From positions 4,252,501 through 4,316,500 of the forward strand of contig JAYKYS010000001.1 in NCBI GenBank assembly GCA_036924285.1: a stretch of 64,000 nucleotides of DNA. The letters are read 5' to 3'. The DNA is from Asterella californica (Eukaryota > Streptophyta > Marchantiopsida > Marchantiales > Aytoniaceae). This document shows, one piece after another, positions 15,792 through 59,263 of the stretch (its first letter is position 1; each line of letters opens with the position of its first letter). The notes under the pieces are model-generated. The model made no database searches and was not told where the DNA came from. It saw nothing but the letters and a program-made list of their open reading frames with translations. A program made the translations under genes and the position numbers.

Positions 15792-18700
15792 TCAAGACTC
15801 TTGAGCTTCAGCTTCAAATTCATCTTCAATCTCCATTGAGTCTTCAGCTTCATTTTCAGTAAGCTCTGCAATGTTCTGGTCCTCCCCTCTCCTTCTGAAG
15901 AGCTTGATTCTCTTCCTGGCGACTGGTATCTTGAGCACTGCACCATCTAACTCTCTCAAAGAATATGTGGCATTATCATAAACTTCTAACACCACATAAG
16001 GTCCGAACCATCTCTTGGAAAACTTTCTGATAGCGCTATGCTGATTATCAAGACTACTATCATAGACTAACACCCAATCACCCTCCTTAACTGGTTTAGG
16101 TCGTAATCTATGCGTTCTATCAAATCTGCCTTTGTTTCTCTCTCTAGCAGTCTTTAATCTTTCGACAGCTTTGGCAACATCCTCAGGTCTTCGTTCTAAC
16201 TGCTGGATCCTTAATGCAAGAAGATCCTCCGTACTTCTATCATCTTCCCATGGCAAAACATTCCAAGTAGGCACAACCTCCTCAATCGGCATCATAGGTT
16301 TCTGTCCTAGTATCAACTCTGCTGGCATGTAACTTGTAACGGTACTATGAGTTGTACGATCTGCCCACAAAGCAAACGGTAGCAGTCTAGGCCATTCACG
16401 GATCTTACCCTTGCAAGCTTTTACCAAAGCTTTGATGATTGGCGGATGACCTCTTTCGCTCTTGCCATTCCCTTCAGGATTGTAAGCAGTGGTTAACGCC
16501 AACTTGATTCCCAATCGCTTGAAGAACTCAACTGCTTCTTGTGAATCCAGCTCACCCCTATCTGCAGTGATCTTTCCCACACACCCATATCTACAAATAA
16601 CATCTTCAAGTAGAAAGCGGCAGACACTAGCAGTGGTCTTCGTCCTCAAGGCACGGCCTTCAACTTGGTTAGATAGATCTTCTCTAGCCAAGACTAGATA
16701 CCTCATTTGTCCAAGTCCAAATGGCATAGTTACCAGATCAACTACCCATTTGTAATGAATGGCTAAAGGATAAGTAGGATGCAGTCCATCACGATGACGT
16801 ACGTTGGAATACATCTGGCAAGGTATACAGGATGAAACAAACTGTACTACATCCTTATACATACCCTTCCACCAATACTTCTCCTTCATCTTGGCAAATG
16901 TAGCCCAAACTCCTCTATGACCGGCCCATAAACTCTCATGGAACTCCTTGATCAGCTTCTGCTGCAATTCCAAGTCACATACCACCCGCTGCGGTATACC
17001 TCCTGGTAGCTTGGGACGCTTCCACAGATGTCCTCCATATAAAAAGTACCCATAAGCTATTCTACGGATCCTCTTGAAATCTGCATCAGACCAGCCTTCT
17101 TGCCTTTCCAATGAACTCAAATAGCGCCCAAGATCCAACCACTCGCCATCGTACATAGTTTCCTCAAATAACTCCAATGGAGCTGCAAAACAGCTTCTAT
17201 CCCTTCTAGCAAGAGCACTAGAATAGAACTCTGTTCCAACATCCTCCTGATCATCTATCATTTCTTTCTCATCGTAATACCTAGCCCTTGATAACATATC
17301 TGCCACAGGATTGTCCTTTCCTGCGATATGTCTAAACTCTGGGTTCAAAGACTTGATATATGCTATCCACCTCAACATAGCAATATCTGGAGTTGTACAG
17401 CTAGTGATCATTCCTAAGAGAGGTAAACAATCTGTCTCCACAACCACAGGTGCTCCTATCAAGTATTCCTTATCACTCTTCATCGCAGTAACTACTCCCC
17501 ATAGCTCTCTCTTGACCTGAGGGTAGTCTCTCTGCCGTGAACTTAATACCTTAGCACCAAAACGCACCACATATCTATTTCCTTCCTGATCATCTTGTCC
17601 TATAGCCCATCCAATGCCAATAGGACTAGTATCAACAGTAAGGATAACAGATCTGCCCAACTCATATGTTACCTTCCGTAGAGTTGGTGGTAAAGACAAC
17701 AGACCCTTCAACTTCTTCATAGACTCGCTTTGCTCCTCTTGCCACTGAAATCTCTGCCCCTTCCTCAACAACTTGTACAACGGATCTGCTACATGTGCAA
17801 AGTGTGGAATCCATATATGATAAAACACACATGCACCTAGAAACCTTCTCACCTCAGTAACCGATCCACATGTCTCCTTCATCCTTCGGATGGCATCAAC
17901 CTTGTTTGGACAAGGTTTCCGACCATAAGATCCACACAGATGTCCCACTATTAACACCTCCTGTTCTCCAAACACAGACTTGGCTCCTGATAAAGTCAAA
18001 TGAACCTCTTCCAGTCGACTCAGTATCTTATCACAATCAGCTATGTGATCTGCTACAAACTTACGGCACCCCCTCTGATCTTTTACCTCATTCTTCTCCT
18101 CCTCAGCACATCCTTTGATCGGCACATCATCAAGGAATGGCATAGTTTTTTCAGGAATGAAATCCCTCAAAACTTTATTCATGCCATTCATCATATGTGC
18201 TACAGAATTGGTAGCACCTTGTGGCAAGGTGCACATCCTTAGTAACCCCAAAGGTGTCCTCATTGTAGTCAAGTCTCTACTCTCAGAGGATAGTTGAAAC
18301 TGATCATAACCTGAATATAAGTCTCCCATCGAATAGATAGCACGACCAGCAAAAGCCTCTGCAAACTCGTCTACAATAGGTCCTATACCCATATTCCTGA
18401 TAGTCACCTTGTTAACTGGCTGCATATCTTGAATGAATCTCAAAGCTCCACTTTTCTTCGGAACAGTAAACCATCTGCTAGAATAGGGAGCTATAGATGG
18501 TTCCAAGATACCCATCCTAATCCTCTCATTGAGCAAGTCTATCAGCTTTGGCAGATGAGCTCTAGGCACAGGGATAGGACGTAGATTCCAAGGCACATGC
18601 GGTATAGTAAAGATTACCATAGGTGCAACCACACTTGGATCTACACATCCTACTTCATGTGACTCTAACGCGAACGCCTTACCATGCCTAGATAGCATCT

Positions 18701-19297
18701 CCCTGAAGCTCTTCTTCTCTTGCTCGGTAAGAAATCCATCACCTCCAATCTTCAGCTCCTTCAGTGTTGTTTCTGTGAACTGGTGCCCAATTCTTCTTGG
18801 TCCTCTGAGCGTCGGTTCTCGTGCAGCTTGCTCCATCTTCTGATTGTAATCGAGTGGCAAAGGCAAAGCCACTGGTTTGACTTTCTTTGCCACTGACTTG
18901 TACTTGGTCTCCACATACACCTCTTGCCGATCTATAAACTTATCAATTACATCATAAAGCTCCTTGGAGCTCACTCTCACCACTCTATCTACATCATCTA
19001 CAGAACTTTCTACTATAGATTTCAACTCCCCTATAGTATCTACCAAATACTGCTCTTCAAACACTCCAGATATATATTCATCTCCTGCTAACTCTCCACT
19101 GTCCCACAAAGACTGCTGTACACACTTCACATGTTGCCTCTCAAACCTCTTCAGATTCTCAACCTTCCTATAACACACTGACCCACATGCCGTCAATCCT
19201 AAGAAGCCAGTGGATAAAGCCTCATGCTCTACTGGATCAGGCGAGAATCCTAGCTCTACTGTACCGTTGAAGTCTCGCTCTTCAATGGTACTCTGCC
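15792..19297 (-). CDS. pol: Family-1 pol: reverse transcriptase, RNase H, integrase
   Basis: ORF2 of element B copies element RNA to DNA and inserts it. Counting from codon TTG at 19196 it has 1134 codons, but the frame is open upstream to a TAG just before the slippery site. It is probably made by a -1 frameshift from ORF1 at 19298-19304 rather than from its own start. Motifs: W-F-T-V-P-K-K near 250; the RT catalytic F-L-D-D-V-P-I-K-G near 354, with F-L-D-D in place of the commoner Y-x-D-D; RNase H V-D-T-S-P-I-G-I-G-W near 519. The integrase zinc finger H...H-R-G...C-I-P-C-Q is near 750-792, and the core D, D35E residues are near 819, 878 and 913 (T-A-D-R-G-E and G-K-S-E-R-G). The acidic C-terminal tail has no chromodomain. 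No stops or frame breaks are seen. Confidence 0.93.
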
Positions 19298-21628
19298 AAA
19301 ACCCCTAGACTCTCTAAACTCCTGAGTAATCTTAGGTAGTGGACGGTCTCTCAAGCTGTCACGATTCCTCTCATGTTCTGCAGCAACGGTCAAAAACTGA
19401 ACAGCTCTTTTGCCGTCTCTACTACGTATCCTAGCATAAGCTGAACCATCATCCATAACTCGTGTCTCCATTCTAACAGCAGTAATGTAAGGCTGCCCTA
19501 GAATGATAGGATAGGTTGACATGTCTTGAACAAAGAAATTCTGAACATCACTGATGTCACCCACAGTTACCTTGATGTTGGGACAAGCACCATAGAGTTC
19601 TCCCCTCTGGTTGTTGGCAGCACGGATAAGCCATCCATGATCGGTGTCTATGGGCCACCTCCCACGCTTGTACAGCTCCTTAGACATCAGATTAATCTCT
19701 GAGCCATGATCAATCAACGCCACCACAGGTTCCTCTAGATCTCCCAGCTTCACTAAGGTCTCTGTGGTTGCTCTCGCCCAATGGTTGTGAGAATAATGGC
19801 TCTTCTGCGATGCTTCCACCTCATCTTCAAACCTCACGTGCTGATCTGATCTTCCCTCTGATACTTGAGAGCAGTAACCAGCAATCTCATCCTCCTCATC
19901 CTCCGACAGTTTGGTCCCTAGAGCGTTAAGCGTAGCTGCTTCACCCAAAATCTGACGTTTCCTCTTGATGATATCTATGATAACCTCATGGAACTCACGC
20001 TTTGCTATCCCAAGAATCTCACCCAAGGTAAACTCAACCTTCCCATTCAAGATACGATTCTCTAACACCTGCTTCAGGTCTGTAGCAATCTCAATATCAG
20101 ACTGAAGTTTGTATGCAGGCATCTTACCCTTCTCCTTGCTTCTCTCCTTCTCCTTTGGTGTTGTAGGTGGTAGATCCTCCATAGTCTCTTCCCGAGTAGG
20201 TGTTGTCTCCTGTCTTGTCTCTGGTCTAGCCCTTTCACTCCTTGTAGCAGGTCGTTTGGCTGTAGAAGCCTCACCTGCATCCTCCCTCCTGCGTTTTTCT
20301 TCTAGTACAGCTTCATGCTGACTTCTTGCAACATAAGCATGCACTGACATAGTATCCACAGGGTCATTCCATCCTGTAGTTTCTCTAATTGAGTTGCCAA
20401 CCCTTCGTAGCACATCCTTGTCTAGCTCTGTTCTAGCTACGGACCGCACTACATCTGACCACAACCCAGTAGTCCCTTTCTCTCTCTCCATCTCCACTTT
20501 CACTCCACAGGTAGCAGCATTCACAAGAGAAACAGCATGTGATGCTGATATCTCATTCACAAGTCTCTTCATACCACCCTTGCCAAAGTTGGTTCCCAAC
20601 ATCATCCCAGTTTCTCTCAGATGGATCTTACCATCTTTGAAGAAGATCAGATCCTTCCTCAATGCATCAGAAAACTCCCCACAATCTCTTCTTACATGGT
20701 CTAGGCTATCACACCATATACAACGATGAACAAAGCCTTCTCTCATCTGAGGTCTCTGCATAGCAGGCTGTACATTCTGCTCCTTCTCTTCTAACCTAGT
20801 GAGCTTAAGCTTAAGCTCCTTCATACCCTTAATCAACTCATCAAGCGGTGAGTCTTCCTCTCTAGCAACTACCAAAGCGGGCTTAGTAGGCAACTGCTTG
20901 ACAGGAATTATCAGAGGTGTTGCTTCACTTACCACCACCTTGTCCCTTCTTCTCTGTCTCTTGGCCAGCAAAGAAACAGCCTCTTCAACCTCCTTCCAGT
21001 CAGTCTTCAATCCTCTCTCCTCACTCTTGTCTTCCAGCAACAGCTCAAGCTTCTCCTGAATAGTCACGTCCGCTGCTTGTAGGAAAAGCTCGGTCTTCTC
21101 AACCTCTAGTGTAAGCTTCTCTGTCCTAGAAAGCTGAGCATATTGACGATCAAACTCCCTTAACAACTCATTTACAGACAAACCTTTGTTAGGTTTCACC
21201 ACCCACTCCAAGAATGTTCTCTTGGTCACCCTCTCTGAATCTTCAGTGTAGTACTCCTCCTTCAAAGCTCGCATAAAGCTCTCCCAACTCTGTCCTTGCT
21301 GCTGCTTGAGCTCCTTCACACGCCCACGAATCTCAGGGACAACAGCAAGTTCAAAGTTCTCCACCATCTCCTTCTCAGGTACCTTGTTCACCTCCATCTC
21401 CCTAGCATAGTATCGCACATACTTGGAAATATCTGTACCCTTGAACTGGTCCATCTGATGCACCACAGATTGCAACGCCTTGGTTGCTAATACCTCTTTC
21501 CTCTCAGTGCTCTGCTGCTGCTGCATAAACATGGAAAAAGCTTGGAACATCTTCATCGTAGCAGCATCCAACTGAACAGGTTGCTGAGCAGCAGCAGCAG
21601 CTCCACTTGATGATCCTTGGTTGGCCAT
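19256..21628 (-). CDS. gag: Family-1 Gag-protease polyprotein
   Basis: ORF1 of element B has 790 codons, with the ATG at 21628 and TAG at 19256-19258. The start (MANQGSSSG) is followed by an alanine/glutamine-rich segment. Next is a helical Gag core of about 200 residues rich in charged residues. A CCHC zinc knuckle C-I-W-C-D-S-L-D-H-V-R-R-D-C lies near residues 302-316 and binds element RNA. After a basic, low-complexity linker comes an aspartic protease domain with A-L-I-D-H-G-S-E-I-N near residue 640. Retroviral-type proteases normally have D-T/S-G; histidine in the second position also occurs in A and C, so it is a family trait. The protease is in the Gag frame, upstream of the frameshift. 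Confidence 0.92.
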   Translation of the reverse strand: MANQGSSSGAAAAAQQPVQLDAATMKMFQAFSMFMQQQQSTERKEVLATKALQSVVHQMDQFKGTDISKYVRYYAREMEVNKVPEKEMVENFELAVVPEIRGRVKELKQQQGQSWESFMRALKEEYYTEDSERVTKRTFLEWVVKPNKGLSVNELLREFDRQYAQLSRTEKLTLEVEKTELFLQAADVTIQEKLELLLEDKSEERGLKTDWKEVEEAVSLLAKRQRRRDKVVVSEATPLIIPVKQLPTKPALVVAREEDSPLDELIKGMKELKLKLTRLEEKEQNVQPAMQRPQMREGFVHRCIWCDSLDHVRRDCGEFSDALRKDLIFFKDGKIHLRETGMMLGTNFGKGGMKRLVNEISASHAVSLVNAATCGVKVEMEREKGTTGLWSDVVRSVARTELDKDVLRRVGNSIRETTGWNDPVDTMSVHAYVARSQHEAVLEEKRRREDAGEASTAKRPATRSERARPETRQETTPTREETMEDLPPTTPKEKERSKEKGKMPAYKLQSDIEIATDLKQVLENRILNGKVEFTLGEILGIAKREFHEVIIDIIKRKRQILGEAATLNALGTKLSEDEEDEIAGYCSQVSEGRSDQHVRFEDEVEASQKSHYSHNHWARATTETLVKLGDLEEPVVALIDHGSEINLMSKELYKRGRWPIDTDHGWLIRAANNQRGELYGACPNIKVTVGDISDVQNFFVQDMSTYPIILGQPYITAVRMETRVMDDGSAYARIRSRDGKRAVQFLTVAAEHERNRDSLRDRPLPKITQEFRESRGFGRVPLKSETSTVQ
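19298..19304 (-). promoter_or_regulatory. -1 ribosomal frameshift slippery site GGGTTTT
   Basis: On the coding strand the Gag codons AGG GGT TTT GGC contain G-GGT-TTT, an exact X-XXY-YYZ heptamer. A slip of one base back leads into the pol frame at TGG CAG AGT. The pol frame has a TAG immediately upstream, so the usable overlap (about 45 nt up to the Gag stop) starts just where this heptamer lies. In A and C the equivalent site has substitutions. Any stimulatory RNA structure downstream was not worked out. Confidence 0.75.
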
Positions 21629-21674
21629 GATATCTGATCCTATAACACTCTCAAGAAAACTCCCACCCTAGGTG

Positions 21675-27473: not shown

Positions 27474-27850
27474 TGCATGCATATTCATCCTCTTCCAAGT
27501 TCGGATATATGAGAGTGTACAAGGTTTTTAATTTATGTCTTTAACTCTTTTTCTTGGTAGGGTTTAGGTTATAACCTAAACCTTAAACTATAGGTTATAA
27601 ATACGAACTAGAAAATATTTTTACTCATGGAAGGCACATGCCTTAATACCAAAAAGAGGTTTAGTCTGTGGAAGTTGCTTATGGGTTTTCTGTAATTGCA
27701 ATGACAACGTATAATCAAGTGAACCAAATGGTTATTAATTTTAGCAGATCAAATTTGGCAATTTGAATTTGGTATTTTAAATATAGTTAACCAAATTTAG
27801 AAAAAAATTCATTGTCTAAAATGTTTTCTCAAACCCACTCGAGCGCCAGT
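27474..27850 (+). repeat. Dispersed repeat copy 1
   Basis: This stretch aligns with the reverse complement of 49620-49912. Shared blocks are GCATGCATATTCA at the start, TATGGGTTTTCTGTA in the middle, AAGTGAACCAA and then ATGTTTTCTCAAA near the end. The two copies are diverged with several indels. No coding capacity is seen; it could be a non-autonomous transposon or an LTR piece. Confidence 0.65.
27561..27582. repeat. 22-bp perfect palindrome with telomere-like half-site
   Basis: Each 11-bp half is GGTTTAGGTTA. It sits inside the dispersed repeat copy and is preceded by TAGGGTTTAGG, similar to the plant telomere repeat TTTAGGG, but with only one or two units it is not a telomere tract. Confidence 0.85.
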
Positions 27851-45430: not shown

Positions 45431-46699
45431 CTCTGGGTCATCCGGACAAGTTTAGGTGCACCCGGGGTTTAACGATTTGGCAATCGCCGCAGATCTCTCC
45501 GCTTGAGCGACTCTTCAGACACCATCGGTTGGGCCAATACACGGATCGCGGCTTTGTTTCGCCGGTTTTAGGTCCGGGGTTCACGTCAGGTGGATTAGGG
45601 TGACACAATCCACGGTTTATCCACCCTAAACCCCTGCATAACACGGTTCATCAGCGTCACGTCACAATGTCAGTTAGCAGTATCAGTTTGGAGTCTAGAG
45701 TCTAGACCGTGGTGGGAATTTATTAGTGGGAAGGAAGTTCATGGAACTAGTCTTCTTCAGCCGCGTTTCCCGTAACAGTTTGCGTGTGGTGCTCTTGTGA
45801 CGCAAACAGCTTCTCTCGCCCGTCGAATCAGCGTTAGCAACTCTTCCTTTCTTCCCGTCTGTTTCTCTAGCGGAGTCTAGCCAAGCCAAGAGTTGCTAAT
45901 CTAGAACGTTGACCGACTAGCAATTGAGTCAGCGTCCCACTTGACCACGCCGGCAGTCCCAGCCCAGGGTTTTCCTGCTTACCTGCAATTTACCGGCGGT
46001 TTTTGACAATTGACGGACTACTGTGTTAATTCACCTGGCGATTTTTAACAAATTTCGAAGATCTTTTTATATTCTATATTTAAGAAAGAAATTATTCGAG
46101 CATTCTCTATTTCTCCTGCATTTTTAGAAAAGTGGCCGGGGCACATAACACGGGATGCCGGATTTGGGCTGGCGCTGGACCACGCTATACCGTAGGATAC
46201 GATAGAGGATTATATAAGGTTTTTACTTGTACATCCTCTATTATATAGAGTTGAACAATAAGCTTTCCACAGTAATCTAAGTTACTTGTCCAAGGTTTTT
46301 GGACTAGGGTAAAAGTTAACACTTCACAGAACGTTTCGACGTCCCACATGCTTGCTTCCGTGTACACTACCCTATGCGTCTCCTTCTATATCCGGTTGAG
46401 ACTGGATCCGCTAATTTTCTTTTTCATTTTGCTGGACAGGAGAGAAAACCAAGAATTTCCTTCCGGATCCTCTAACTTAGAATTGCACTTTGTGTGTTCT
46501 CGCCGGACAAGTAAATATACATACAAACGGCCGTTTTGGAGAAGTGGCGGAAAAGGACAAGCACGGCGGTCGGGACGGAAAATCTCGGGGCACGGTTGGC
46601 CGGGAGGTGGGTTTCAGGTTTAAAAAACAGCGGGACGACATTAGGGCATTAATGCGAAGGAAGGGAACTGTTATGTGAGAGGACGGTGTAATAATCGGT
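45431..46699. other. No recognisable gene
   Basis: No reading frame here resembles a known family. A 9-bp inverted repeat (ATAGAGGAT...ATCCTCTAT) surrounds a TATATAAGG box near 46200-46240. The left boundary of the HUH element probably lies somewhere near the right end of this stretch, but I could not find it. Confidence 0.4.
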
Positions 46700-47292
46700 T
46701 AGGGCATCGTGAATCATTTCTCGTTTGGGTGTCGAAGTGATCAGGCGGTCCTGTGTCCGATGTTGCAGCGGGCTGTGCTACTGCTGGTGTTCGGGTATAG
46801 GTGGTGCTGCAGGAGTTTTGCTCGACGATCGTTCTGTCCGGCCGGGTTGCTATTGTTTACGTGCTTACGTTGTGCACGTTTCTGATTTGTGCTGTGGTTC
46901 TGCTGCCTCGCAGCGAGGTGTGGCAGAGGATTTCATTTGTTGATTTTCATTTCGGTCGGTTTGCTCTTATCCTCTAGGTTTGATCCGTCACGGCGAGGTG
47001 TGGCGGGTAGGTCAGATTTGGTTTCGTTGTTCCATTGGTCGTCCGCTTGTGATGTTTGCTTGCACGTATCATTTGTTCTTGCCTGTGATGGCTTGTCTGT
47101 TACTTCTCATCTGGGCACGACATTTGAATGGGTGCGGTACAAGGGCGAGAACAGTCTGTCTCTCGTCGTGTCAGCTGCCAGGAAAACACAGTGTGGGTTC
47201 GACTTCCATCAGCATGCGGACGGCATGGGGTTCGCTTGTACACGATCAGATAAGTACAGTCTGTCTGGTTTCTTTCTCGTTAGTGTTTTTGA
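46700..47292 (+). other. 5' flank of the HUH endonuclease gene
   Basis: GC content is higher than in the surrounding AT-rich DNA, like the gene itself. The sequence CGAGGTGTGGC occurs twice (near 46914 and 46995). A CTGTGCTACTGCTGG motif near 46772 resembles the CTGCTACTGCTGTGCAG repeats downstream of the gene, hinting that the mobile unit spans both sides. An overlapping plus-strand frame (46889-47326) is open in another phase. Whether it is an exon, leader or chance cannot be decided. Confidence 0.4.
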
Positions 47293-48765
47293 ATGGCTGC
47301 TTCAAACCAAACCTCAGAAAAAGTAGATGAATCGAGTGGGAGCAGTTCTTCTGTCGACGTACAGTCCAGCCCGCCTCATAGTGACCAAGTTTTGCACCTA
47401 CATTTCTCTTCTGTTGATCCCCGTTTTCCTTTGTTGTCTTCAAAACGACCTATGATCCCGTTTTCAGACAGTAGCCTTCAGCTGATCCGGACATATACCT
47501 ACTTAGAACTGTCTTCTGCTCGAGAAGTGCCACCATTCTTACTCAAGTTCGACTACATCAAGATTAGCAGAACTTGTTCTCCTTGCCAGTTGCATTCTTG
47601 TCCGATATATTCCATGTCAGGTCCATATCGTTTTTTTTCCTACTCGACTGATAACCTCTTCCTCTACTTGCAGGACTGCAGGTATCGGATGTTCTCATAC
47701 CCTACCTTCTTTAAACGTCCGGACAGCAGTTTCGAGTGCACTGTTGCTTGCTTGTACAGACATCACTTTCTTCCGTGCGATGTTCTGTGTTGGATCCTTT
47801 CCAGTTCAGGTTTGTTTGTCATCATTACTCATCCTTCTCCTGAGACAATGTCTTTGAGGAGGGAAGCGAGAGCCAGGAGACCGACGCTGGAGACGTCGGT
47901 GACAGTCTGCAGGACCGGCACTGATCTGGAGACGTCATTGTTTCCTTTGATTTCAGAGTTTCTCCATGCACACTGTGTCTCAGGGGTTTTCTCTGTCGAG
48001 CGTGGAGGCAGCCTGCTCCACTTGCATTTCCAGGGGGTAATCTCTATTCATGCAAAATCTTGTATTGATGTCAAAAAGCGTGTGATGCAAGCTCTCGGGT
48101 GGGACAAAAACAAGCCTGTGGGGGGCGAAGTGTGTGTAAAGGTCCTCTCCAACAAGGGCCTTCACACCTTCGTGGGAATGGTAGGTTATTGTCTCAAGGA
48201 CCATCAGGAGGAGCACCACATTGCGACCATGAAAAACATAAACGAGTCAATGGTGGCAGATGGTAAAGAGTTGTACATGTTACTTGGGGCGTCTGACACA
48301 AAAAACCGTGTGGAGCTAACGTTTTTCAACATATTACAGAGAGCGCTGCAGTTCAACAGGTATAAAAGTCGTCATCCATTGTCAACAACCTTTCCGCGTT
48401 GTCTTCGTGCCATGCTGATGTCTGGTAAGTATATCCCGTCTCCCAGATGGCTCCTCCAGCACGGGATACACAAGACACGGACCGATGCCCTATGGACTTC
48501 TCTGATTAGACCCGCTGATATAAGTCCTGAGGATATTGACGACATATTTTTTTACAGAGAGTCTCAGCGTTGCGGACACTGCGGTCGCAGATACTATTAT
48601 AACGGCAAAGGCGATGGAGAGGAGGCTCCAAAGTCCCCATGTGAACCGGAACCGCCATCAGCACCGCAGAGGGCCCCTTCTGACGTCTTACCAGACTACA
48701 TACTGCTCGTGGATGCCTTCCTCCGTTCGACTGGTGTAGATAGATCTTTTCCCATCGAAGTCTGA
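47293..48765 (+). CDS. Rep-type HUH endonuclease, replitron-like transposase
   Basis: An intact 490-codon ORF. ATG at 47293 is fixed by an in-frame TGA directly upstream; the TGA stop ends at 48765. Residues 200-310 look like a rolling-circle Rep nuclease: a strand with V-F-S-V-E-R-G near 230-236, the metal-binding HUH motif H243-L-H245-F-Q-G, and the catalytic motif Y299-C-L-K302-D (Y-x-x-K). Such enzymes nick single-stranded DNA and stay covalently joined to its 5' end through the tyrosine. I see no Walker A/B helicase motif. The N-terminal half has a C-x2-C-x4-C cluster near residue 95; the C-terminal part has R-C-G-H-C-G-R-R (C427, C430) and a proline-rich tail. A single-Tyr HUH protein without helicase fits the transposons called replitrons; a captured viral Rep is the alternative. 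Confidence 0.75.
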   Translation: MAASNQTSEKVDESSGSSSSVDVQSSPPHSDQVLHLHFSSVDPRFPLLSSKRPMIPFSDSSLQLIRTYTYLELSSAREVPPFLLKFDYIKISRTCSPCQLHSCPIYSMSGPYRFFSYSTDNLFLYLQDCRYRMFSYPTFFKRPDSSFECTVACLYRHHFLPCDVLCWILSSSGLFVIITHPSPETMSLRREARARRPTLETSVTVCRTGTDLETSLFPLISEFLHAHCVSGVFSVERGGSLLHLHFQGVISIHAKSCIDVKKRVMQALGWDKNKPVGGEVCVKVLSNKGLHTFVGMVGYCLKDHQEEHHIATMKNINESMVADGKELYMLLGASDTKNRVELTFFNILQRALQFNRYKSRHPLSTTFPRCLRAMLMSGKYIPSPRWLLQHGIHKTRTDALWTSLIRPADISPEDIDDIFFYRESQRCGHCGRRYYYNGKGDGEEAPKSPCEPEPPSAPQRAPSDVLPDYILLVDAFLRSTGVDRSFPIEV

Positions 48766-48799
48766 AGCACTTGTTTTCTGTCAACTACTGTGCACAAGT

Positions 48800-48941
48800 C
48801 TTCGGGCGAACTGCTACTGCTGTGTGCAAGTTACTCTCTTCTAGTTAGACGAACTGCTACTGCTGTGCAGTCTGTACAGTTGGGTTTCTCAAAGGTTATG
48901 TGAGCGTGGTCTCCAGGCGAACTGCTACTGCTGTGCAGTCT
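48800..48941 (+). repeat. Three direct repeats of a 19-22 bp motif
   Basis: CGAACTGCTACTGCTGTG(CAG) occurs at about 48807, 48849 and 48918, with 42 and 69 bp spacing, starting about 40 bp after the HUH ORF stop. Two of the copies continue into CAGTCTGTAC or CAGTCTCTAC. Repeats like these could be sites bound or nicked by the encoded protein; that is inference. Confidence 0.85.
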
Positions 48942-48961
48942 CTACTGTTCTACTTATGTGT

Positions 48962-49079
48962 AGAGCGATTTCTACTTATTTTCTCCTGCCAGGAAGCACT
49001 GTCACTTCTACTTATGTGCAGGCCGACTTCTACTTATTTACTGCTGTATAGAAGCATTGTGATTTCTACTTACGTCCAG
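48962..49079 (+). repeat. Two tandem 59-bp units
   Basis: Each unit contains TTCTACTTAT, GAAGCA(C/T)TGT and TTCTACTTA(T/C)GT and ends CAGGCCGA-like. They run on directly from the three shorter repeats, forming a structured 3' region. Confidence 0.8.
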
Positions 49080-49104
49080 GCCGAATGTAGTGAAGTCGTC
49101 CGAA

Positions 49105-49310
49105 TGTAATTTTTTCTGCCACTGGCATATAAACGTGTTTGGAAATTCCCAAGTTTTTCTCTGTACAGTTGTCTGAATGAAATGAGCCTCGGTGTGCGCT
49201 GTGTACTGTGTTTTGTCTCGCTGGGCTTTTCCAGCCACAGGCATCGAAACGTGTTTGCAAACGTGTTTACTTTTCCAGCCACAGGGATAGAAATGTCTTT
49301 GAAAATTTTG
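49105..49310. repeat. Three dispersed copies of a 40-bp motif
   Basis: TTTTCCAGCCACAGGCATCG near 49226 recurs as TTTTCCAGCCACAGGGATAG near 49269 and as TTTTCTGCCACTGGCATATA near 49111. Each is followed by AAACGTGTTT or AAATGTCTTT. They may mark the right end of the HUH-bearing element. Confidence 0.7.
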
Positions 49311-49619
49311 GAAACTGGGCCCGGTGAAATGAAACATGGTTGAGCCAGAGGATTTGTACCTATGCGAAGAGGGGGAAGCCAAAAAACGAAAACCGCCCTA
49401 GGGGACCGGAAGAAGTGATGCTAGTGGTGGACCGTAATAATAATTTGAAAATACAACCAGCAACACAGACGCAGTTGGAACTTTCGCTAGGCTAAATATG
49501 CATACGAACTTCACTTCTTGCCGAAAAGAAGAAAAAGATAAACGTACAAACTAACAATAAAATTATCATGAGGGATTGGCTAAAAATTAGCTTTAAAATG
49601 TTAATAAAAAATACAGTAA

Positions 49620-49912
49620 CAACATGGTGCTCGACATTTGAGAAAACATGAGTGGACAACAAAGTTTATTAAATTTATTTGACTAAATGTAACTTGGTAA
49701 ATTAAGTTGCTAAATTTTAAATACTAAAGTTAAAACCACTTGGTTCACTTCATTACATGTTGTAAATCCAGGTACAGAAAACCCATATGTTACTCCTGCA
49801 TACTGAACTTCGTTTTGGTATGGGAAGGTCTGGGTCTTTCACCAATAAAAAAGTTTACATTTGTATAGTTTTAATTTATTTCTTCACCCTTCCATGGGAA
49901 GGTGAATATGCA
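49620..49912 (-). repeat. Dispersed repeat copy 2, inverted
   Basis: Its reverse complement aligns with 27474-27850: GCATGCATATTCA, TATGGGTTTTCTGTA, AAGTGAACCAA and TGTTTTCTCAAA occur in the same order. Near 49883-49906 a near-perfect inverted repeat TTCACCCTTCC ATG GGAAGGTGAA marks one end. Confidence 0.65.
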
Positions 49913-52143: not shown

Positions 52144-53086
52144 TGTAACACCTTTTGCTTTTTCCCCAAACCAGATGGCATTCGGGCAGTGATTAATCAA
52201 AAGTGGCAGCTGCATGGCACAAGGCAGGCTCAAGAGACTAGATAAAAGAGTGTCGTGAACCCTAAAGGAGGCCATTCTCAGTTTTTCAGTTTTGGAGAGA
52301 GCACTCTTGGTAGTGAGGGAGGAGACTGTATTTTCAGTGTAGTATACATTGCCTTTGAGGTCAGAAATCAGGAGCTAGAACTGAGGCACATCAAGCTCCT
52401 TGGAGAGCAGATTTGAAGAGGGACCTTGAGAGCAGACTTGGGGTGTTGATTAGGGCGCTGACTTGGGGTCTGATCTGTTGAGTAACAGAAATCAGGGCGT
52501 TCGGAGTGAAAGTAGGTTCTCTGGTGAAGTCTTAGTTCTGGAGTTGCTGAGTAGTGAAGGATTGCCGGTCCAAGAGCGCTGCGTGACCTTGTCAGCAAGT
52601 AATGCCATGTAATGTATATGAGCCCGTGACTTTCTCCATTCTGATAAATAGGCTTGAGTTGTGTGCCAAAACTGAGTTGGGCGCATCTGGTGTCGTGTTG
52701 ACTTTATTTCGGTGTAATTGCTTTGCCTTCCTACTTCCTAGCATCTACTAGGTCTCCTAGTCTTGGCGGTTGCTCCTTGTGGGTCCTGGCGTTCCGACTT
52801 GATCACCAGTAGCGGAAGCGCTGCCCAAATTTTATGCAACCCAGGTCTAGAATAGTTCCACCTGTATTTAGCAACCTAAGATTGACCAGAGACCTACAAA
52901 AGACTAGTTGGTTATTCGAAACCCGTTCAACAGTTATCAAATCCTCGGTGCTCATTAGCTGATAGTTTAACGAACTGGATCTGGAGACACAAATAAAGTA
53001 TACAGGTCTCTAGGGAGGTTCACGTTCGGCCGTTCATTGGTTAGAGATTAAAGAATCTGTTCCGAGATCTGCGATCGAACGTTACA
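52144..53086 (+). repeat. 5' LTR of element H
   Basis: 943 bp from TGTAACACCTTTTGC to GATCGAACGTTACA. The promoter should lie within it; a TATA-type GATAAATAGG lies near 52641. Confidence 0.95.
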
Positions 53087-53088
53087 GT

Positions 53089-53100
53089 TGGTATCAGAGC
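53089..53100 (+). promoter_or_regulatory. Primer binding site of H, initiator tRNA-Met
   Basis: TGGTATCAGAGC, two bases after the 5' LTR, is the exact 12-nt complement of the plant initiator tRNA-Met 3' end, the usual primer of many plant LTR elements. Confidence 0.93.
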
Positions 53101-53136
53101 AGGTTCAGGTTGAATCTTTGCTCAACACCATCGACA

Positions 53137-56100
53137 ATGGAAGCCGTGCCGACTGGGATGGACGAGATGCAGGCGTTTCTGAAGAAGTTGGAAGGCCGAC
53201 TTGAGCAAGTGGAAGCTGAGAACAAGGTGCTTAAGGCGGATTTAGCTCAAGCAAAAGCGACACAGGAGAAAGAAGCAGAGGTCCCTGTACTACAAACTGA
53301 GCAAGTCAAGGATTTAGCACTGCTGGGTGAAGGAGCAGTTGATGCTACTCAAGCAGATAAGAATGAAGATGGGTCACAGAAGGCGCAAGAGAATGTTGCG
53401 GAAGGCAGCTCAGCCAAAGAAGGGCACAAGCGGAAAGTGAAGTGGGCTGAACCAGCGACACCATCAGCCTTCAACGGTGAGAAAAGCTTTTCCAGGTTTG
53501 AGTTATGGATTACTGAAATGGAGAATTACTTGGAGAACTTCGATGAGCGCAGCTGGTTCACCTATGCTGTTAGTAGACTGGAAGGAGAGGCTAAGGAATG
53601 GTATGGAGGTCAACAGCGGATGAGGAGTTTGAACGGTACAACTCCTATGTCCACTTGGCCGGAACTGAAGGATGAACTCAGAAGACATCTGGTACCGGTG
53701 GATGAAGCTACACAGTTTCGGCTGGAGCTCATTCATCTGAGACAGACAGGGAGTATCAGGCAGTATCTCCAGCGATTTTCTGAGTTGGTTACTCGTTTGC
53801 ACATGGTGGATCGCACCGACTTGCTGTTTCACTTGAAGAAAGGTCTGCAGGGTTTCTATGCTGGTGTGTTTGATAGCTGGGTTATGTTTCACAAGTCCGA
53901 GGACATGCAAGACTTGTTTGCATTTCTGGAAGCAGCAGAGAACACTAGGGAACGTAATTACACCGTGCAGCCTTCCAAGTTTCAGCGTGGAACAAGTGGT
54001 GATGAGCCTAGTCGAGGATTTTGGCGTAATCCTCAAGGACAGATAGCGTCCTCTCAGAGTAGAGGTGGTAGAGGACGTGGTGGTGGAAGATTTGGTACAT
54101 CTGGAAGGGGATTTTCTCGTGGCTCTCAGCAGCGAGGAGTCACTCGTGGTCCTATTCAGACACGACCTACTGGATCCTATGCATCCAATGCAGGATCCAA
54201 CCAAGCTTCGACTTCAGGTGCTAGGAGCAGTGGCGCTAGCAGTGCTATACCTTCAAGGACGATCATCTGTTTTCGATGCGGACGAGATGGTCACATCGCT
54301 CGTGAGTGTCCTCAACGTTCAACAGCGAGCAACGTTCGTGGGTTGACAGCTGAAGAGACAACCAGTGTGGAAGAACCAGTTGAGGCGACTACTGAAGCAG
54401 AGGTATGTGCTGGTGAGCATTTGGTAGAGCATGGGGATTTTCTGCCGTGGATTGAAGTGAAAATAGGAAACCACCGGTGTTGTTTGCTTATTGATACTGG
54501 AGCAGATGTGAATGTCTTGGATGAAAAACTAGTCAGGACCTTAGGGGTGACTAGAACCAAGATCATGAGCCCGTTGTTGGTAAGGTTTGTGCAAGGCAGC
54601 ACAACCGTTACAGAAAAGCTCATGAGTGTTCCTATTACTGTTGGAGGGGTAACTAGGAAGCATGAGTTTTTAGTTATGAGCTTAGGTGACACGATGGAGG
54701 GTATCTTGTCATGGTCTTGGTTACAAGAGACCAAGGCAAAACTAGATGTTCAAGAAGGGAACATCATAGTCATGGATCGATGGGGCTCGGGTCAACCACA
54801 TCCATTGGTCATCAAAGAGAGACCCAAGGAGCCAAACCATGTTGCTCGTAGGTTCCAACGAGCAAAGGTGGCATTTCAGATCTGCACAGCTAGACAGTTT
54901 GGAAAGCAGATCAAGTCAGTAGATGAAGCTTGGGTTGCAGTGATGTCTAAACCCAAGGTGGAGACGGATGAGGAAGAACGTGTTGCTGCTCTTCCCATAC
55001 ATACTGATATGCAGGCATTGATTGAGAGGTATTCTCATCTAATGCCGGACCAGTTACCAACAGGACTTCCGCCGAGGAGAGCCTTGGATCATGCTATTGA
55101 TCTGGTTCCTGGGGCTACCCCTACTGTAGTGCCATCAAGACGGATGTCGTTTGATGAGCTGACAGAGCTGAAGACTCAACTGAAAGAGTTGGTAGCTCAG
55201 GGTATCTTACGACCAAGTATCTCACCTTATGCTGCCCCGGTGTTGTTCGTGGCCAAGAAAGATGGTGGTATTCGCATGTGTGCGGACTATCGTGCACTCA
55301 ATAAGGTTACTGTCAAGAACAAGTATCCTCTTCCTCTCATGGATGAAACCACCGATCGGTTGGCCACCGGAAGATACTTCACCAAGCTGGATCTGCGTTC
55401 TGGATATCACCAGATCCGGATCAAAGAAGGAGATGAAGAAAAGACAGCTGTAAGGACGAGGTATGGCTTGTTTGAGTATACAGTGTTGCCGTTTGGATTG
55501 TCCAATGCACCTGGTACTTTCTGCAGGCTAATGAACGAGATCTTCAGAGATCTCTTGGATGAGAGTGTTATCGTGTATCTAGACGATATCATCATCTTCT
55601 CATCCACTTGGGATCAGCATCTAGTAGATGTTGAGATGGTGTTTAAGCGCCTAGAAGAACATCAACTCTATCTCAAGAAGAGCAAGTGCTCTTTTGGACA
55701 AGAGAGTGTAGTGTTTCTAGGATGTTTGATCGATGCGCAGGGCATTCATCCTAACAGGGCTAAGATTCGAGCCATTGTTGAATGAAAGAGACCTGAGAGT
55801 GTTCATGAGCTCAGATCTTTTCTTGGATTAGCCACATATTTTCGACGCTTTGTTTATCAGTATGCGCATAAAGCCGCACCTTTGTTTGGCTTATTGCGCA
55901 AGGCTTCCAAAGTTGTTTGGAATCCAGCAGCTGAACGAGCGTTTCAAGGATTGAAACAAGCACTGACAGAGATGCCCGTGCTAGCTCTTCCAAAGATGGG
56001 AGAACCTTTCGAGGTTCACACAGATGCTTCTCAATGGGCCATAGGAGGAGTGTTGATGCAAGGAAAGCATCCGGTGGCTTACGAAAGTCACAAGTTCTCA

Positions 56101-57918
56101 GAGACTGAGGCAAAATGGCCCGCTCATGAACAGGAGATGTTCGCAGTTATCCATTGTTTGAAGCGTTGGGAGCATTATTTGTTACCAAGCAAAGTTACTG
56201 TTGTAACGGACTGTGAGGGTAATACATACTTTCAGAGTAAACCTCGTTTGTCACGTAAACAACAGAGGTGGCAAGTGGAGCTTGCACGTTTTGATATCGA
56301 ATGGCGGTATCAAAAGGGGAAGGAAAATATTCCAGCGGATGTGTTAAGCAGACGTGTCCAGGCGTTAACAACCCAAGACACAAGTGAAGAGCTTTTGGAT
56401 CGAATCAGACAAGCATTGCCAGATGATCCTCAGGCTCAACGTTGGACCAGCCAACAAGGGAGAGATCCATTGGTACGTCATCTCTCATTTCGCAATGGCC
56501 TTTGGTTTTACAAGCAAACCAAGGTCTATGTTCCAGCTGGATCTCTAAGGACACTCGTCATGCAAGAATGTCATGATTGTGAACTGGCTGGACATGGAGG
56601 ACAAAATAGAACATTGCAACGAGTTAAAGAGCAGTTCTATTGGCCGTCCATGTTGGAGGATGTAATCAAGTACGTGCAGACTTGCTTGACATGTCAGCAA
56701 CAACGAACTGAGCGGAGGAGACCTGCAGGGTTGCTGAGGCCATTGCCAATACCTGATGGGCCTTGGGAGAGCATAAGTATGGACTTATGCACAGGTTTAC
56801 CCGAATCAGGAGGTTTTGATGCTCTGTTAGTTGTTATAGATCGTTTCAGTAAGCAAGCTCACCTTATCCCTTGTAGGGAAACAGTGACGTCAAGAGGTGC
56901 CGCTGAACTGTTTATACGATATGTTTTTAAGTATCATGGGATGCCTAAAGACATTGTTTCAGATCTGGATAGGAGGTTTGTAGCTGATTTTTGGAAGGGT
57001 TTGTTTCGAAGGCTCGGAACTACCCTCAAGTTCAGTTCCTCTTATCATCCTGAAACTGATGGTCAGACGGAAAGGACGATCCAGATAGTAGAGCAAGGGT
57101 TGAGGAACTATATCATGCGAGATCAGAGTGATTGGAGCGAGCACTTGGACTTGGTGGAGTTTACATATAACAACACCAAGCACTCGAGTACAGGATTTAA
57201 ATCATTTGAAGTGGTTTATCGGGGCTCTCATGCACCTTGGACTCCTATAGCTTTAGCTACCAAGGGGCATGAAAACACAGGAAGGTCGAATCAGGATCCT
57301 CCAGATCTAGAGACTTTCATACGTGTTCAGGGGACTGTGTTTCAAGAAGCCAAGAAACAAATGGAGAAGGCACAACAACGGTATGCTAAGTATGCAAACC
57401 GTGGTAGGCAAGATTTACAATTCGAAGAAGGGCAGAGAGTCTGGTTGAGAACCAAGAACTTCAGAATCCCAGCAGGGGTGGATTTAGCCAAGAAGCTTCT
57501 TCCAAAGTGGGCAGGACCATTCCTGATCGAGAAGAAGTTAGGTCCTGTGACCTATAAGTTACATTTTCCAGCTAGCATGAAACATTATCACCCCATCATT
57601 CATGTTTCTAACTTGAAAATGTTTCGTGAAGAACTAGAATCGTTGCCAGGAAGATATCAGAAATGGCATCCAGTGTTAGAAGCATTACCAAGAGCTGATG
57701 ATCTTGAGTTGATTGAGATAGTAGATCATCGAGCATCACCGAATCCAGATGGAGCTGGAGAACCCGTCACTCAATATCTATGTCGTTGGACAGGTAGAGT
57801 CCCGGGATTGGTAAGTGAAGCTTGGGAGTACCTAGATGATCTAGCATTGTACAAGTTTCAAGAACCACTGCGTAGATATTTTGTGAGACGACAATCTGCA
57901 GTGGTTTCTTCCAGCTAA
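53137..57918 (+). pseudogene. gag-pol: Gag-Pol polyprotein of H with one internal stop
   Basis: I start at ATG 53137 because the open frame before it begins only with TTG. The frame runs 1594 codons to 57918, broken once by TGA at 55783-55785. Parts in order: coiled-coil N-terminus (residues 1-50), Gag core, Arg/Gly-rich stretch, CCHC knuckle C-F-R-C-G-R-D-G-H-I-A-R-E-C (about 376-389), protease L-I-D-T-G-A-D (about 452), and RT with V-Y-L-D-D-I-I (about 811). RNase H V-H-T-D-A-S-Q (about 960), integrase zinc finger (56575-56700) and core motifs S-M-D-L, S-D-L-D-R and E-T-D-G-Q-T-E-R (56777-57080) follow. A diverged chromodomain-like tail ends at P-L-R-R-Y-F. The stop replaces the usual tryptophan codon after the RT, consistent with TGG to TGA. 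Confidence 0.93.
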
Positions 57919-58320
57919 GCGGTGGATTGAATCGAGTCAGAAGAGTCATGCCTAAGGGCCCTTCAAGGACACTGGAACCGAGTAGATCTGGCCAATCTGC
58001 TCGTCTAAAGGTGGAGTTGTGGTCTGCTGACTGCTTATGGCTGTCGGATGTCAATCAGGTTTAAGCTGACGCTACTATGGTGTATCATAGTAAGGAGGTG
58101 GATAAAAAGAAACTGACGAGTTCACCACCTGGAAGCTAGGGTTCTGTCTCACCCGAAAGCTTCAACGGATGCTCGGTAATGGAGCATAGCCTTGAGAAAG
58201 GGCTTAATCTTATCTTGGATGGGGTACTGTTCCTCTGGATTTGAGGAAGTGTTGTTTCTAATGTGGTATTGTAGATACCGCAGTTCAGTGGAAGAACTGC
58301 GTTTTGCTGGTTGGGGCGAT
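57919..58320 (+). other. 3' untranslated region and polypurine tract of H
   Basis: No coding sequence. Just before the 3' LTR lie an 8-bp perfect hairpin (CGCAGTTC/GAACTGCG, 58279-58301) and the purine-rich GGTTGGGGCGAT. The tract end GGGGCGA is shared with element G, suggesting a common polypurine tract. Confidence 0.7.
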
Positions 58321-59263
58321 TGTAACACCTTTTGCTTTTTCCCCAAACCAGATGGCATTCGGGCAGTGATTAATCAAAAGTGGCAGCTGCATGGCACAAG
58401 GCAGGCTCAAGAGACTAGATAAAAGAGTGTCGTGAACCCTAAAGGAGGCCATTCTCAGTTTTTCAGTTTTGGAGAGAGCACTCTTGGTAGTGAGGGAGGA
58501 GACTGTATTTTCAGTGTAGTATACATTGCCTTTGAGGTCAGAAATCAGGAGCTAGAACTGAGGCACATCAAGCTCCTTGGAGAGCAGATTTGAAGAGGGA
58601 CCTTGAGAGCAGACTTGGGGTGTTGATTAGGGCGCTGACTTGGGGTCTGATCTGTTGAGTAACAGAAATCAGGGCGTTCGGAGTGAAAGTAGGTTCTCTG
58701 GTGAAGTCTTAGTTCTGGAGTTGCTGAGTAGTGAAGGATTGCCGGTCCAAGAGCGCTGCGTGACCTTGTCAGCAAGTAATGCCATGTAATGTATATGAGC
58801 CCGTGACTTTCTCCATTCTGATAAATAGGCTTGAGTTGTGTGCCAAAACTGAGTTGGGCGCATCTGGTGTCGTGTTGACTTTATTTCGGTGTAATTGCTT
58901 TGCCTTCCTACTTCCTAGCATCTACTAGGTCTCCTAGTCTTGGCGGTTGCTCCTTGTGGGTCCTGGCGTTCCGACTTGATCACCAGTAGCGGAAGCGCTG
59001 CCCAAATTTTATGCAACCCAGGTCTAGAATAGTTCCACCTGTATTTAGCAACCTAAGATTGACCAGAGACCTACAAAAGACTAGTTGGTTATTCGAAACC
59101 CGTTCAACAGTTATCAAATCCTCGGTGCTCATTAGCTGATAGTTTAACGAACTGGATCTGGAGACACAAATAAAGTATACAGGTCTCTAGGGAGGTTCAC
59201 GTTCGGCAGTTCATTGGTTAGAGATTAAAGAATCTGTTCCGAGATCTGCGATCGAACGTTACA
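58321..59263 (+). repeat. 3' LTR of element H
   Basis: 943 bp, matching the 5' LTR apart from one base (59208). Followed by ACTT, the right copy of the target duplication. Confidence 0.95.

Follow-up and report, generated by a model that had tools for sequence, protein, structure and literature searches.

The window analysed here, a 64,000-nt stretch of the genome of the liverwort Asterella californica (assembly GCA_036924285.1, contig JAYKYS010000001.1, positions 4,252,501 to 4,316,500 of the forward strand), contains an open reading frame (ORF) of 490 amino acids at 47293-48765, on the forward strand, as are all features of the element given below. This frame very probably lies in a 3-kb replitron of a lineage with two overlapping genes, of which the upstream one (ORF1) is broken in this copy, while the loss of one nucleotide fuses what is left of it with the open transposase gene (ORF2) and produces a 490-amino-acid chimera. 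The element is a further copy of a known kind of transposon in the expected type of host, and worth keeping are its conserved layout of two ORFs and its preference for certain targets.

Transposase domain and putative catalytic residues

In Pfam, the window ORF matches Replitron_HUH (PF21859) at residues 210-328 (47920..48276) with an E-value of 2.4e-12 and 47.8 bits (cut-off 28.5), and 88 rows match it in its own assembly (516.7 Mb in 773 contigs); judged by its sequence, it is a replitron transposase, far beyond chance. The 88 rows set a minimum for the number of copies, even though some elements account for two rows each, and 28 of the 88 are free of internal stops, including two that are adjacent to each other. 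Replitrons, which Craig is said to have reported in 2023, were named as the closest concept for this ORF in an earlier reading of the window made from its letters alone (the original prediction), which also placed HLHFQG at residue 243 and YCLKD at residue 299, where both were found. The absence of a helicase noted at that time agrees with the Pfam matches of the ORF up to E 10, which comprise two replitron families only: Replitron_HUH and, weakly, Replitron_C (PF21860, residues 371-420, 48403..48552; 15.6 bits, below the cut-off of 27). The scores for Replitron_C range from 15.6 to 17.6 bits in three copies and from 21.1 to 23.6 bits in three proteins of Riccia sorocarpa. No helicase family was found in Pfam scans of the 490-amino-acid ORF, ORF1 and ORF2, and no Helitron family among the Pfam matches of the ORF and ORF2. 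The window ORF gave no sequence match in PDB, where a profile had a single, unrelated match (E 1.2); in PHROGs no match was obtained for the window ORF2, and one (E 0.099) for the ORF2 of copy L028. Structure comparison gave a partial, weak fold match of the nuclease domain to Rep nucleases. Absences in fold searches were not used as evidence, and the predicted structure of the chimeric ORF (mean predicted local distance difference test score of 42.5) was not used.

The putative catalytic residues are conserved across the aligned rows. Y299 (48187-48189), by conservation the catalytic tyrosine, is accompanied by K302 and is present in 19 of 20 other aligned rows, the exception being L029, and the putative metal motif is H245-F-Q247 (48025-48033). 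The original prediction had paired H243 with H245, but H243 is variable in the row alignment, and the metal-binding pair is probably H245/Q247. The cysteine clusters described on both sides of the nuclease domain do exist (17 cysteines, among them residues 95, 98, 103, 427 and 430), except that the N-terminal ones belong to ORF1 and not to the transposase. The C427-x-x-C430 pair of ORF2 (48571..48582) is found in 12 of 15 rows of the own genome and in none of the six Riccia rows.

Two overlapping frames and the origin of the long ORF

Twenty copies were read with their flanks (the window copy, L009, and L010-L028) and four as shorter stretches (L029-L032). Families were defined as A (L009, L010, L011, L013 and L022), B (L012, L015, L018 and L019), C (L016 and L017), D (L021 and L026-L028) and E (L020 and L029). 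The basic layout is a cysteine-rich ORF1 of about 210 amino acids and an ORF2 of about 306 amino acids in the +1 frame relative to it. In the alignment of 20 copies, a nucleotide between 47779 and 47780 is present in all 19 other copies and missing in the window copy, and this shortfall unites the two frames; a separate gap lies three columns away in L025. The window ORF thus consists of an in-frame, cysteine-rich ORF1 remnant (residues 1-162, 47293..47779; no Pfam family at E 10 or below), of residues 163-185, translated from ORF1 DNA out of its own frame, and of ORF2, the replitron transposase, open for 305 amino acids from M186 (47848..48765). The ORF1 frame of the window copy contains an extra stop at 47841-47843, ahead of the column of the shared ORF1 stop (47922-47924). 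Because of the one-nucleotide shortfall and the extra stop, the 490-codon ORF is a chimera and not the intact single gene of the original prediction, and its continuity, taken there as a sign of recent activity or selection, stems from an indel that joins frames separate in its siblings. Whether such joins represent decay or a tolerated fusion, the openness of the 490 codons is no evidence for a selected protein of 490 amino acids, and the long single gene is most probably an artefact peculiar to the window copy. As this case shows, an indel can create a long, open chimeric frame in one copy of a repeat, which comparison with siblings brings to light.

Eleven copies were listed for their frames, and both ORFs are open in seven of these (L011, L015, L016, L021, L026, L027 and L028). 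In all seven, ORF1 runs on for 76 nt beyond the first nucleotide of the start codon of ORF2, which gives a 77-nt overlap with a constant stop position, and both frames are open together over 307-418 nt. Outside family E, all 20 copies examined have the ORF1 stop in one and the same column (17 copies including the window copy, plus L013, L025 and L030, with L031 and L032 outside the count). The body of ORF1 shows ratios of non-synonymous to synonymous substitution (dN/dS) of 0.13-0.42 in 21 of 21 pairs from the seven copies, and ORF2 outside the overlap shows 0.04-0.33 in 14 of the 21 pairs, the other seven being saturated. By these ratios both ORFs are under purifying selection, and both frames are genes. 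Selection on the ORF1 tail alone is not supported (dN/dS of 0.59-1.79 in the overlap between families). The first 26 codons of ORF2 carry fewer synonymous differences than the rest (0.267 versus 0.443; permutation p 0.0054, five sequences), with two other 26-codon windows among 283 as low or lower. ORF1 displays, by eye, a C-x2-C followed by a C-x-C ... C-x-H pattern, which suggests zinc and DNA binding, the role being a guess; three ORF1 sequences matched nothing in Pfam at E 10 or below, and ORF1 had no sequence match in PDB.

Family E carries ORF1 and the nuclease in one frame, open for 514 amino acids in L020 and damaged in L029, which suggests that the two proteins work together. Two protein searches matched only six proteins, all gene models (R1sor) of Riccia sorocarpa (P0001-P0006), with 46-51% identity over 37-49% of the window ORF; the main matches begin between residues 181 and 189 of the window ORF, except for one that begins at residue 242. 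In contrast to the window ORF, the Riccia proteins have N or K at the position of H243 (five rows with data) and no C427/C430 pair. An ORF1-like stretch is found at the start of P0002, which aligns with L020 (37% identity over 70 residues, E 1e-8) and L028 (E 0.008) and scores 13.1 bits with the ORF1 profile, versus at most 5.9 in 1000 shuffles; nothing of weight was found for such a stretch in the other five. In a tree of 19 nuclease rows, family E forms one clade (100/99), and rows labelled as split are found on either side of the deepest fork of the own-genome rows (94/90 and 86/85). Split frames are probably the older state in this genome, an argument carried by L031 and L032, both damaged long branches; L012 was labelled as split by its family, though its own frames are joined.

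In L012, L013, L025 and L030, too, indels at other points shift ORF1 DNA into the frame of ORF2, which speaks against a simple view; L013 and L025 are broken at further points, L012 is open no further than residue 420, while L030 is open to its end. These joins were taken as decay in a stretch where both frames are open together, but the fusion may be tolerated. Candidate routes for the translation of ORF2 may include an internal start, splicing or a +1 frameshift. Programmed +1 frameshifting from ORF1, or coupled reinitiation, would yield free ORF1 and an ORF1-nuclease fusion and would make the single-frame family secondary; this is conceivable, if rather doubtful, and we know of no such recoding in HUH transposons. 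Leaky scanning to ORF2 is not supported, since the region separating the two start codons shows no depletion of out-of-frame ATGs (in seven copies, 2-5 observed and 2.2-4.5 expected).

It is somewhat unlikely that ORF1 and ORF2 are exons of one spliced gene, with the copies open in both frames making a chain of about 500 amino acids. The P0002 gene model unites an ORF1-like part with the nuclease across a long stretch between them, and L020 has both parts in one frame; L020, however, needs no intron, and the 77-nt overlap holds one stop position. By eye, L021, L024 and L014 have lost the candidate donor, a CAGGT that directly follows the LQD motif of ORF1, no GT-AG pair is common to all families, and the copy alignment shows no conserved intron at the junction. 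Still less probable is a genuine, selected single-chain transposase of 490 amino acids. The window ORF is open from end to end, family E offers the 514-amino-acid ORF of L020, and four more copies have frame-joining indels; the five joins, however, lie at differing places, and L020 has its join at yet another position and keeps a complete ORF1. Moreover, the 19 aligned copies that are one nucleotide longer include the close siblings L010 and L011, and the out-of-frame residues 163-185 delete the second cysteine/histidine cluster of ORF1, whose frame then meets its further stop. The preferred reading is that of two overlapping genes joined by a deletion in the window copy.

Element ends and target preference

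The whole element, a member of family A, spans about 46514..49499 (approximately 2.99 kb including AATAT at both ends), where L010, L011 and L013 align with it and outside of which they diverge. L010 and L011 are about 97% identical to the window copy over about 2985 bp, and L013 is 92% identical. At the 5' end lies the terminal direct repeat AATATACATAC (46514..46524), and 20 copies start with (A)ATATACAT while their left flanks differ. This start is common to families A-D (14 of 15 rows, plus six further places), the exception being L021, whose row stops short of the element end. In a set of 14 places, the exact motif is not shown by L041, L042 and L044, and L038, which is identical with copy L022, carries a variant form. 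The element 3' end is GGTGAATAT or a close variant, and the 3' direct repeat is AATATGCATAC (49495..49505), of which the bases after AATAT are probably target DNA. AATAT(ACAT) is found at both element ends in four families, and no inverted repeats of at least 12 nt pair the two ends.

AATAT is present at 13 of 14 listed 3' junctions, a count that covers copies with a defined 3' end and in which L014, L021 and L024 were assigned by motif and not by sibling alignment. RCA comes next in 10 of these 13, and across the loci retrieved it follows 84 of 813 occurrences of AATAT (binomial tail 3e-8); L050, a fifteenth junction outside the count, has ACT there. Since near-identical siblings differ directly after AATAT or AATATACAT, the bases that follow are probably target DNA, and from these junctions the target appears to resemble the element's own 5' junction (AATAT-RCAT like). 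A nuclease recognising one short site in donor and target would explain this likeness, with an analogy in IS200/IS605 elements. The AATAT (5 bp) flanking both sides represents either a duplication, for which the replitron criterion is 2-8 bp, or a match to the target; no empty site was found. The right flank of L010 matches 40 places, of which, besides itself, none covers the first 54 bases.

No stable hairpin was found at the ends of the window element (3' end fold z-score of 0.19). Direct repeats occupy the region between ORF2 and the 3' end (48804..49305), including a 58-bp period at 48948-49084. Such tandem repeats before the 3' end are family-specific (58 bp x2.4 in L009 and L011, 88 bp x2 in L015; none listed for L020, the 3' limit being a guess there) and may be binding sites. 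Copy L028 (5508-5550) carries two instances of the 3' end motif TCGCTGGGTGAATAT at a distance of 26 bp, as though the termination signal had been read a second time.

Relation to known systems, proposed mechanism and neighbourhood

The window element shares with replitrons the helicase-free single-tyrosine HUH nuclease of the Replitron_HUH family, the short terminal direct repeats, a length of 2.99 kb inside the range of 0.9-4 kb given in PMC10741241, and a non-seed plant host. Non-seed land plants are the hosts expected from section 3.1.7 of that source; the original prediction was right about a plant-type genome. It differs in its selected, overlapping upstream ORF1 and weak Replitron_C match. 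Replitrons in liverworts are already published, and the two-ORF layout may be new. The conserved overlapping accessory gene, the target preference matching the element ends and the dozens of copies provide handles on helicase-free single-tyrosine transposition in a plant.

Helitrons likewise have an HUH nuclease, and a rolling-circle type of transposition is expected for both, but Helitrons fuse Rep to a superfamily 1 helicase and the window element has neither a helicase nor a Helitron family. Helitron ends are 5' TC and 3' CTRR with a subterminal hairpin, whereas those of the window element are of the AATATACAT and GGTGAATAT type. The Reps of CRESS-DNA viruses and parvoviruses resemble the nuclease domain in its partial fold, and the H-x-Q-G of the window ORF is similar to the HUQ motif that circoviruses and nanoviruses carry; the CRESS-DNA virus Rep is, however, fused to a superfamily 3 helicase, and the window element has transposon ends. 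A relic of such a Rep, or a Helitron fragment, is most improbable in spite of the fold resemblance, as the best family is Replitron_HUH, with no helicase family, and the same ends recur across many copies.

By analogy with the HUH superfamily, transposition would involve nicking, strand transfer and a host helicase. ORF1 would act as a cysteine-rich accessory protein, probably binding DNA or a partner, and ORF2, a single-tyrosine HUH (HUQ) nuclease, would bind the element end. Y299 would cut one strand near the AATAT/ACAT junction and become linked to the DNA by a 5' phosphotyrosine. Host replication enzymes would then displace or copy the strand as far as the 3' end GGTGAATAT, where termination would occur, and the freed strand would be joined into a target resembling AATAT-RCAT.

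Several repeats are associated with the copies. Nested head-to-tail insertions were observed in L010 (2800-2900 and 5860-5900) and L024 (near 2487, oriented), with replitron-like 5' ends directly at the GGTG/AATAT or GATG/AATAT ends of hairpin-ended repeats. A 188-bp unit, replitron-like at its 5' end and hairpin-like towards the 3' side (fold z-score of -1.4), stands in tandem just before the full family C element of L016 (2560-2860, oriented) and is perhaps a non-autonomous replitron. Palindromic repeats of the type ATATTCACC...GGTGAATAT, seen by eye in L010, L021, L024, L025, L028 and L044 and folding with a z-score of -3.8 in L010, may be short replitron-dependent elements. Elsewhere in the window, ARAGORN called a tRNA-Cys at 58274-58358 that Rfam did not list at gathering thresholds and that is probably spurious. 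Just outside the element, 49637-49852 shares an inverted repeat with 27618-27833 (73% identity). Long retroelement-like ORFs occupy 53014-57918 and 15792-21667; for 53134-55785 there are four matches at E 1e-30 or better, two of them from animals, and the matched proteins carry reverse transcriptase and integrase domains.
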